This document shows positions 1 to 2,938 of a stretch of DNA of 64,000 nt, one piece after another. Numbering within the stretch: position 1 is the stretch's first letter; every line of letters begins with the position of its first letter. The notes under the pieces were generated by a model. It made no database searches, had not been told where the DNA came from, and was given only the letters and a program-made list of their open reading frames with translations. The DNA comes from Desulfomonile tiedjei DSM 6799. Its GTDB lineage: Bacteria; Desulfobacterota; Desulfomonilia; Desulfomonilales; Desulfomonilaceae. The position numbers were made by a program, and so were the translations under genes. The stretch is from the NCBI RefSeq assembly GCF_000266945.1, contig NC_018025.1, positions 3,414,001-3,478,000 on the forward strand, written 5' to 3'.

Positions 1-1
1 G

Positions 2-310
2 TTCGACGGAAAATCGCTGGAATCGGTAAAGACGTTGAAAGTGGTGAAAGAGCCGATACCTTCGGACTATTTCCCCGTACTTGAACCGGAAAAGGCCAAA
101 AAGCAGGGTATCAAACCTGAAGAATTGGCACAGATAAAAGAAAAACATTTGAAGGACGACATCTATGCGTTGACTGGAGCCACCATTTCGAGTCGAGCCG
201 TGACCGAGGGTGTCAAAAACACGGTGAGAAAATTCGTGTACCGCCTCGGAATCCTCACGGATGCGCTGAAGCAGGAAAAGGTTCCGGCAGCTTTTTTAGG
301 GGAGGTTTAA
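2..310 (+). CDS. rnfG: RnfG, C-terminal part (electron transport complex, FMN-binding subunit)
   Basis: This is the 3' end of a gene that begins before the window. RnfG is a membrane-anchored, periplasm-facing subunit of the Rnf complex, which couples ferredoxin:NAD+ electron transfer to ion pumping. The motif LTGATISS near codons at 170-193 is the covalent flavin site of the family; the Thr at 182-184 would carry the phosphoester-linked FMN. The gene is followed after 1 bp by rnfE, and the GGAGG at 301-305 inside its last codons serves as the rnfE ribosome binding site, so translation is probably coupled. The G-E-A-B order matches the usual rnfCDGEAB operon, so rnfC and rnfD are expected just upstream. 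Confidence 0.9.
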   Translation, partial: FDGKSLESVKTLKVVKEPIPSDYFPVLEPEKAKKQGIKPEELAQIKEKHLKDDIYALTGATISSRAVTEGVKNTVRKFVYRLGILTDALKQEKVPAAFLGEV

Positions 311-311
311 G

Positions 312-932
312 GTGAACAGAAATCTGACGCTCTTATGGAATGGGCTCATCCCTGAGAATCCGATTTTTCGTTTGGCCTTGAGCCTGTGTCCCGCAGTCGC
401 TGTTACGACTTCCATAGAAAACGGGCTCCTTCTCGGCATCGCGGTTATTTTCGTTCAGGTGCTCTCAAGCTGCACAGTCGCGATATTCCGCCCGTTCATT
501 CATCCTCGTATCAGGATCCCGGCATACGTCATCGTCATTGCTTTGTGGGTGAGTGTTATCGATATGATCCTGCCGGTGTTTTCTCCTGAAGCGTATAAGA
601 AAGTCGAACTTTTCGTAAAGCTTATCGTGGTCTTCGCGATCATCATTTCTCGATTGGAGCTGTTCGCATCCAAGGAGCCTCTGGTTCCGTCCTTCTTTGA
701 CGGTCTCGGGATGGGTATCGGATTCACCTTCGGACTGTGTCTGACCGGCGCAATTCGGGAATTCTTCGGAGCAGGACAGCTTCTCGGCTATGATATCCTC
801 GGATTCAAGCCATTGCTGGTCATGATATTGCCTGCTGGTGGATTTTTCGTCATTGGCTTCATTATGGCGGCATTCAACTGGATAGAGTACAAGCTCACGG
901 GTAAAATCCCGGCTTCAGGAGGAGGCCACTAA
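312..932 (+). CDS. rnfE: RnfE (electron transport complex integral membrane subunit)
   Basis: 206 residues with about six hydrophobic segments, the normal size of RnfE/RsxE. It opens with NRNLTLLWNGLIPENPIFRL, close to the family opening NP-x-L-V-x-LLGLCP, and contains the SLCPAVAVTTS and GAIREFFGAGQLLG stretches typical of RnfE/NqrD. It is one of the two membrane subunits (with RnfA) of inverted topology in the Rnf core. The start is GTG at 312 with GGAGG 7 bp upstream. The stop is separated from rnfA by one base, and an AGGAGG at 919-924 inside the rnfE end serves rnfA. Confidence 0.93.
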   Translation: MNRNLTLLWNGLIPENPIFRLALSLCPAVAVTTSIENGLLLGIAVIFVQVLSSCTVAIFRPFIHPRIRIPAYVIVIALWVSVIDMILPVFSPEAYKKVELFVKLIVVFAIIISRLELFASKEPLVPSFFDGLGMGIGFTFGLCLTGAIREFFGAGQLLGYDILGFKPLLVMILPAGGFFVIGFIMAAFNWIEYKLTGKIPASGGGH

Positions 933-933
933 T

Positions 934-1887
934 ATGAACTTTTCGCGAAATTTTGTCAGAGCCGCTTTGGTTGCCATAGCCGTATTGATGATGGCCGCCC
1001 CTGTTTTAGCTGAAACCGCTGGATCAGGATCCTTCAAAAGCGATACGGAGATCGAGCTCAATTTCGGTGTGCCCGTCGACGAAAGTTGGGCCAAAAACAC
1101 CAGCAATTACACAGTGTTCGAGAAACAAGATCCTGACATTCGAATCAATGTCGACAGCGTTGTACTCGGACCTCAAAAGGTCACTGCAATTCTGAAGTTC
1201 AAAGACCCCCTGAACCTCTCCAGCCAATTCGTTATCGAAGCGAAAGCTGTGACCGCCGGTGGAAAGGTTATGGGCGATAAGGATTTCTTGATCAAGAAGA
1301 GCCAGATGCAGCTTCTCTTCGGAATCTTTCTCGGCGCAATGCTGATCAATAACTTCGTTTTCACGAAGTATCTCGGACTCTGCATATTTTTCGGCGTTTC
1401 CCAGAAGAAGGAAACAGCCATCGGCATGGGTGTTACGTTCACCGTGGTTATGGTGTTGAGCGCAATTATCAGTTGGTTCTTGTATGCATATGTTTTGCAG
1501 GTCCTTCACTTGAGCTTTCTAAAAATCATCGTGTTCATCGGCACGGTGGCCATTTTTGTTCAGGCGATGGATACCATATTGAGAAAGATCAATCCATACC
1601 TGTTCAAGAAGCTGGGCGTCTATCTCGTGTTGATCACCACGAACTGCATCATCCTTGCAGTACCGTTGATCAATGCGGATAGCCATTACAACGCGTTTGA
1701 GAGCCTTACTCTGGGATTGGGAGCAGGCATTGGATTTGCCTTGGCACTGTTCCTTATGGCATCGGTGAGGGAAAAACTGGAAGTCGCGAGGGTCCCTCCG
1801 ACATACAAGGGACTCCCGATTGCGTTCATAGTGACCGGATTATTTGCTTTGGCATTTCTCGGTTTTTCCGGTCTGTCGATTTTCTAG
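934..1887 (+). CDS. rnfA: RnfA with an exported N-terminal Ig-like extension
   Basis: Residues 125-317 (193 residues, the full normal length of RnfA) are a complete RnfA: INNFVFTKYLGLC, then GVSQKKETAIGMG, LITTNCIIL and the ending LAFLGFSGL. In front lie 124 extra residues: a signal peptide at 1-26 (hydrophobic core, cleavage after VLA) and a beta-rich stretch at about 32-118 with the pattern of bacterial Ig-like/SbsA-type domains (SDTEIELNFGVPVDESWAKN, then a NYTVF strand). The start at 934 is supported by AGGAGG 9 bp upstream and by the one-base gap to rnfE; the internal Met125 at 1306 would leave 370 bp of open frame with a signal peptide unexplained. RnfA is thought to have a periplasmic N-terminus, which fits an exported domain there. 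Confidence 0.9.
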   Translation: MNFSRNFVRAALVAIAVLMMAAPVLAETAGSGSFKSDTEIELNFGVPVDESWAKNTSNYTVFEKQDPDIRINVDSVVLGPQKVTAILKFKDPLNLSSQFVIEAKAVTAGGKVMGDKDFLIKKSQMQLLFGIFLGAMLINNFVFTKYLGLCIFFGVSQKKETAIGMGVTFTVVMVLSAIISWFLYAYVLQVLHLSFLKIIVFIGTVAIFVQAMDTILRKINPYLFKKLGVYLVLITTNCIILAVPLINADSHYNAFESLTLGLGAGIGFALALFLMASVREKLEVARVPPTYKGLPIAFIVTGLFALAFLGFSGLSIF

Positions 1888-2011: not shown

Positions 2012-2938
2012 ATGGAGAACGTCTGGACTATCGCCTTTTGGGGCATCGCATTCTTTGCAATTTTCGGTATCGTGTGCGGAGGGGCTCTTGCTTACGCGGC
2101 TCAGCGCTTTGCAGTGAAAGTAGATCCCAAGATCGAGGCGGTGAGAGCCTGTTTACCCGGAGCTAACTGCGGCGCCTGTGGATACGCAGGATGCGAATCC
2201 TATGCCGAGGCGGTGGTTACCGATCCCGCTTGTCCGCCGGGCAAATGTGCTCCCGGAAAGCAGGAAGTTGCGGAAAAAGTCGCAGGGATTACCGGTAAGA
2301 GCGCCGGCGCAGCCAGTGCGGTCATTTCGGTGCTTCGTTGCTCCCGAAATGATGGCGAAGTCAAGAAGAAACACGAATATGTGGGATTCGATACCTGCCA
2401 GGCCGCTTCCATAGCGTTTGGCGGCCCATACGAGTGTGATTTCGCTTGCGTGGGCTATGGCGATTGCGAAGCTGCATGTCCGTTCCATGCCATTCACATG
2501 AAAGACGGAATGCCGGTGATCGATCCTGAAGCGTGCACGGGTTGCGGTGTCTGCATCAAGACGTGCCCGAAACAGGTCCTCCAGTTGCTGCCGAAAGACG
2601 CTCCGGCGTACGTGCCCTGCAGCAGCAAGGATTCCGGCAAAGCCGTGAGTAATGTTTGCAAGGCAGGTTGCATCCACTGCGGAGCATGCACTCGTAAGGC
2701 AAAAGATGTGGTCAATATGATCAATGACCGCATAGAAGTGGACTACGAGAAATTCGATGAAGACATGGCCAAAGCATGTGTGTGGTCGTGCAACCGTCAG
2801 TTCATCTTCCGGTACCTCGACCCGCAGCGCCAGGCAAAAGCCGTTGAAGAGATAAAGGCAGAACAGGCCGCGAAGAAAGCTGCTGCTGCTAAGAAAGCCG
2901 CTGCTGCCGAAACTAAAGAGGCGGCTGCCGAAGCTTAA
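2012..2938 (+). CDS. rnfB: RnfB, multi-cluster ferredoxin-like subunit of the Rnf complex
   Basis: RnfB accepts electrons from ferredoxin on the cytoplasmic side. An N-terminal membrane anchor (FWGIAFFAIFGIVCGGALAY) is followed by the Fes-type 4Fe-4S motif PGANCGACGYAGC, then by several CxxCxxC-type cluster motifs, including CTGCGVCIKTCPKQ and CIHCGACTRKAKD, enough for four or more clusters. The C-terminus is a Lys/Ala-rich tail of about 30 residues. I chose ATG at 2012 rather than the in-frame GTG at 1997 because GTGAGGTGG at 1997-2005 looks like the ribosome binding site. A 124-bp gap separates it from rnfA. A strong terminator follows, so this is the operon's last gene. Confidence 0.92.
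   Translation: MENVWTIAFWGIAFFAIFGIVCGGALAYAAQRFAVKVDPKIEAVRACLPGANCGACGYAGCESYAEAVVTDPACPPGKCAPGKQEVAEKVAGITGKSAGAASAVISVLRCSRNDGEVKKKHEYVGFDTCQAASIAFGGPYECDFACVGYGDCEAACPFHAIHMKDGMPVIDPEACTGCGVCIKTCPKQVLQLLPKDAPAYVPCSSKDSGKAVSNVCKAGCIHCGACTRKAKDVVNMINDRIEVDYEKFDEDMAKACVWSCNRQFIFRYLDPQRQAKAVEEIKAEQAAKKAAAAKKAAAAETKEAAAEA

Follow-up and report, generated by a model that had tools for sequence, protein, structure and literature searches.

A predicted Ig-like domain exported ahead of RnfA is paired with an enlarged RnfG in what looks like a distinct Rnf subtype of Desulfobacterota

The window, by which we mean the whole stretch of 64,000 nucleotides of Desulfomonile tiedjei DSM 6799 that was analysed, opens within an rnf operon (Table 1). 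RnfC, RnfD and most of RnfG are encoded just upstream of it. The genes run rnfC-D-G-E-A-B, as they do in the named loci described below. A single base separates the stop codon of rnfE from the rnfA ATG at 934, and a ribosome site (AGGAGGAGG) lies upstream of this ATG at 917-925. (Note that the C-terminal tail of RnfB, encoded at 2870-2938 of the window, is rich in Ala, Lys and Glu and of low complexity.)

Table 1 Features of the rnf operon in the window
Feature	Position	Strand	Details
rnfG (enlarged), 3' end	1..310	+	305 aa; start upstream of the window, L062:8393-9310
rnfE	312..932	+	206 aa
rnfA with N-terminal extension	934..1887	+	317 aa and stop; ATG 934, TAG 1885-1887
Signal sequence, residues 1-26	934..1011	+	V-L-A↓E cleavage-like site; equivalent sites in relatives; putative cleavage
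Ig-like domain, residues ~30-121	1021..1296	+	motif PVDESWAKNTSNYTVFEKQDPDI; alignment, AlphaFold model, SbsC match, Big_5 in relatives
RnfA core, residues 128-314	1315..1875	+	cluster cysteines C150 and C238; alignment, structure-chain and Pfam matches
rnfB	2012..2938	+	308 aa; NF005503 318 bits, over cut-off

Residues 125-317 of the rnfA product make up the full-length RnfA core of 193 residues that a preliminary description of this DNA had placed behind an in-frame extension. Residues 128-314 align near end-to-end with solved RnfA chains (7zc6_A, E 9.5e-50; 9eri_A, E 3.5e-49), and Pfam Rnf-Nqr (PF02508) matches residues 129-314 with 177.1 bits, over its curated cut-off of 23.8. C150 and C238 are invariant in an alignment of 48 sequences; the two conserved cysteines of RnfA are ligands of the RnfA/E metal centre (PMC9588780). 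NCBIfam TIGR01943 is the top-scoring family for the protein, yet the score of 209.7 bits lies below the cut-off of 229.3, which argues that this is a divergent RnfA-type subunit rather than a standard member. Moreover, at 317 residues and with an exported domain, the protein departs from the usual definition of RnfA (~190 residues, no extra domains).

The signal sequence of 26 residues proposed in the preliminary description is supported by its relatives. In the Desulfomonilaceae the N-terminus is hydrophobic, and the sites at its end (VLA↓E, VIA↓E and VHA↓A among them) resemble those of signal peptidase I; in 30 of 32 loci outside this family a lipobox Cys is found 12-14 residues ahead of the first Phe that is conserved in the domain. 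To judge from the sequence, the extended RnfA outside the Desulfomonilaceae is thus mostly a predicted lipoprotein. The window protein has no lipobox with a +1 Cys, and two members of the Desulfomonilaceae have a Cys nearby that is ambiguous. The presence of two different processing signals at one place argues for selection on both export and cleavage. In the core itself the loops that follow helices 1, 3 and 5 are positive, a charge pattern that fits the outward-facing N-terminus suggested earlier.

Residues 27-124 are beta-rich, and structure prediction agreed with the expectation of an Ig-like domain at the N-terminus: an AlphaFold model based on a 48-sequence alignment has eight strands across residues 30-120 (pLDDT ~72-81). 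(Note that the RnfA core was modelled poorly because the alignment is shallow.) When the model was aligned structurally with the Ig-like domain of the S-layer protein SbsC, the match extended over 90 residues with a Z of 15.1 and an rmsd of 1.2 Å; the domain model also matches Sap and SbsB and, more weakly, CopC. Pfam Big_5 (PF13205) was found in 7 of 21 relatives with E values no higher than 0.01, the best being 1.7e-6; the window sequence gave no match. These findings point to a predicted Ig-like fold of the SbsC/Big_5 kind. Within the domain alignment PVDExWAxNxxNYxVxEKxDPDI is strongly conserved, and the linker from the domain to TM1 has a conserved Lys-Lys. The domain alignment contains no conserved His, Met or Cys and no haem or metal ligand motif, and CopC-like copper binding was ruled out on account of the missing His/Met/Cys ligands. 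A profile search of the genome returned no further copy of the Ig domain at an E of 1 or better.

The extension is fused to RnfA, with an open frame, in all 17 of the other family genomes searched, and identity of the domain among family members is 49-63%. A motif scan of ~85,000 species with an extension-only profile returned 48 named loci, assigned to Desulfomonile, Desulfobacterales, Desulfonema magnum, other deltaproteobacterial genomes and one 'Proteobacteria', and in 48 of 48 the extension is fused to RnfA. Stops or frameshifts over 934-1305, which the preliminary description had named as one of two findings that would undo its claim, were absent from both sets of relatives. In nine close pairs dN/dS was 0.05-0.25 for the domain as compared to 0.01-0.07 for the core, values from which the extension is judged to be under purifying selection. 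Whether the extension follows one clade, a question raised at the outset, could be answered: the extended RnfA cores form a single clade with a support of 100 on a stem of ~1.8 changes per column. In a tree with reference chains this clade lies among the RnfAs and not beside NqrE, with a rooting that is uncertain because of the long branches.

The most divergent extended RnfAs are those of L144 (G183) and L143 (G301), in which SSPDI replaces DPDI and the signals are signal-peptidase-I-like; a pattern search indicated that the RnfG of G183 has lost the usual [ST]GAT pattern. Separately, three Desulfomonilaceae genomes, G003 (L138), G007 (L139) and G009 (L140), hold a second operon with D, G, E and A genes, which is maybe a partial Nqr; its RnfA/NqrE-like protein is without the Ig domain and branches near NqrE.

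The extension of RnfA is matched by an enlargement of RnfG, which is 293-304 aa in all 45 complete extended operons. Two parts are added, a lobe at the N-terminus (~residues 58-130) and a lengthened segment ahead of the FMN site, and FMN_bind spans 115 residues in the enlarged RnfG for a 77-position profile. Against the extended-type profile, 30 of 31 ordinary RnfG ORFs match the last ~55 of 304 positions only, the exception being the ordinary RnfG of L138, which matches a middle stretch only; the lobe was matched by none of the 31. RnfC, RnfD and RnfE of ordinary operons align near full length and have no such added domain, so that within the set A, C, D, E and G the gain of a domain is confined to RnfA and RnfG. 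Separate searches of 395 Desulfobacterota genomes with the RnfA-domain and RnfG-lobe profiles returned the same 13 genomes, from five families, and never one profile without the other (in the window's genome the lobe match is at G000:C1:3413564-3413788). Like RnfA, RnfG falls below its NCBI subfamily cut-off (79.6 bits against 102), with Rnf still the top-scoring name. This enlargement, and the predicted-lipoprotein form of most homologues outside the Desulfomonilaceae, had been missed in the preliminary description.

The sharing of both domains by 13 of 395 genomes, together with the single clade on a very long stem, suggests that Desulfobacterota have a distinct subtype of Rnf, in which RnfA and RnfG alone bear additional mass on the periplasmic side. 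Note that because all extended members belong to one clade, the perfect pairing of RnfA and RnfG may stem from one ancestral event and not from a functional requirement; in a mirror-tree comparison of the Ig domain with its partners, RnfD scored at least as high as RnfG.

Solved structures show RnfG near the N-terminal helix of RnfA (PMC9588780), which fits the earlier proposal that the domain sits beside RnfG. RnfG is described as a mobile flavin domain that shuttles between RnfA/E and RnfD, coupled to the inward/outward switch, and ion access is gated by TM1a and TM4a of RnfA (PMC11889175). An Ig domain attached to TM1 would sit in the path of RnfG, and this, taken with the strict pairing, makes a guide or clamp our best guess. 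We envisage that the signal sequence takes the Ig domain across the membrane and would then be cut, by signal peptidase I here, while most Desulfobacterales would lipidate the protein and use signal peptidase II. The Ig domain would be left in the periplasm, tied via the Lys-Lys linker to TM1, a gate helix of RnfA, and would pack onto the extra N-terminal lobe of RnfG. In this position it could restrict and orient the flavin domain of RnfG as this swings between RnfD and the RnfA/E cluster, and docking of RnfG would thereby be coupled to opening of the RnfA/E gate. We favour this reading, an RnfA of a distinct subtype whose exported Ig domain guides or clamps the swinging RnfG, but hold it tentatively, with a confidence that stops somewhat short of even.

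A less probable reading, albeit one to be taken seriously, is that the Ig domain serves assembly or anchoring: together with the signal sequence and the lipid anchor it would help to insert an N-out RnfA and hold the complex together, with no role in the pump cycle. The export signal with which the extension begins would suit such a role, as would the lipobox Cys of most loci outside the Desulfomonilaceae (30 of 32) and the fact that Ig domains of this kind are often passive spacers or contacts in S-layer proteins; however, other RnfA proteins insert without an extension, and the strong conservation of WxxNxxNYxVxEKxDPDI and the strict pairing with the RnfG lobe suggest a specific contact. We consider it rather unlikely that, in a separate Rnf lineage, the Ig domain on the RnfA gate helix and the matched RnfG lobe form a built-in periplasmic clamp, often lipid-anchored, which gates RnfG movement and alters the coupling or direction of the pump, for example so that sulfate reducers short of energy would let ions drive the reduction of ferredoxin in a reverse mode.

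Sulfate reducers are rich in periplasmic cytochromes, and the hosts of extended RnfA are mostly relatives of sulfate reducers. The preliminary description had proposed that the domain docks a periplasmic cytochrome; more broadly, the Ig domain, alone or along with the RnfG lobe, might dock a cytochrome or other redox protein and provide an exit or entry for electrons on the outside. A conserved motif on an exported domain is compatible with this, as is the exposed RnfG flavin of solved complexes (PMC9588780). However, the domain is without a haem or metal ligand motif, and multihaem ORFs were no more frequent in the neighbourhood (4 of 52 extended as against 3 of 37 ordinary loci, a weak test that covers nearby genes only), and we regard docking as improbable. 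Strongly disfavoured, and to our minds scarcely credible, is the notion that the extension is never made, with translation from Met125 and 934-1305 non-coding or an annotation artefact: an ATG does occur at residue 125, preceded by a weak purine stretch, but a Met125-equivalent start codon is present in only 5 of 48 homologues, which makes a shorter product unlikely, and this count, the dN/dS of the extension, the frames open in every family genome and named locus, and the strong SD at 934 led us to rule out an internal start.

A separate observation concerns RnfB. In 25 extended-type operons an in-frame TGA, and never TAA or TAG, occupies the position of the first Cys of the first Fe-S motif of RnfB (LAGAQ-U-GGCGF), with a predicted hairpin after it (L079, L082-L093, L096-L102, L104, L106, L107, L109 and L110; for example L082:4964 and L097:7290); the equivalent in the window is the TGC of RnfB Cys53 at 2168-2170. 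The TGA-type RnfB is likely a selenocysteine protein at the cluster feeding RnfA/E, and most of the genomes that encode it have SelB-like genes over cut-off. Selenoprotein lists include an 'Fe-S cluster domain-containing protein PRK07118, UxxC', not tied to Rnf there (PMC9312934), which is probably this TGA-type RnfB. Two full-length SelB-like genes, with 404 and 291 bits, exceed the curated cut-off in the window's genome too (G000:C1:5619382-5621259, minus strand, and G000:C1:3562952-3564838, plus strand), though its RnfB uses Cys.

The extended version of Rnf is apparently undescribed so far. A literature search returned no paper with both 'RnfA' and 'N-terminal extension', and the extension is unmentioned in a 2025 review of RNF and NQR; because subscription papers lay outside the search, the novelty is provisional. 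What is new here, at the level of sequence, is the occurrence of the RnfA domain and the RnfG lobe in exactly the same genomes. The way in which Rnf links the flow of electrons with the pumping of ions is a matter of debate, and a central step is that RnfG moves between RnfA/E and RnfD; a natural subtype with matched domains on these two outward-facing elements offers a handle on that step. The hosts belong to one lineage of mostly sulfate-reducing bacteria, and the extension provides a sequence marker by which to recognise a distinct Rnf clade of sulfate reducers, one in which both RnfA and RnfG fall below current subfamily cut-offs. In many species, moreover, a core polytopic subunit has been turned into a predicted lipoprotein.

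The predicted fold of residues 30-121 is that of the Ig-like domain of S-layer SbsC (PDB 4uic, 2ra1; the Big_5 kind), at an identity of ~20%. SbsC, however, is a secreted wall protein with the domain as one of its repeats, whereas a polytopic membrane subunit bears it here, in one copy. The periplasmic copper proteins CopC and PcoC have a related beta-sandwich (Z up to 8.8) and differ in that the RnfA domain is without their His, Met or Cys ligands. The RnfA proteins of Acetobacterium woodii and Clostridium tetanomorphum (9eri_A, 7zc6_A) share the core of 190 residues, the six helices and both cluster cysteines, and their operons have the same partners C, D, G, E and B; however, they are without a signal sequence and Ig domain, and their RnfG is ~190-207 aa as compared to 293-304 in the extended type. 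NqrE and NqrC of the Vibrio cholerae Na+-NQR (7xk3_E, 7xk3_C) are of the same membrane family, and NqrC (~250 aa) likewise exceeds ordinary RnfG in size, its match to the RnfG model being as good as that of RnfG chains (Z 12-14). NqrE, in contrast, is without the extension, and the extended core scores higher against RnfA (175 bits) than against NqrE (122 bits); furthermore, unlike Na+-NQR, the extended operon has RnfB and RnfC.
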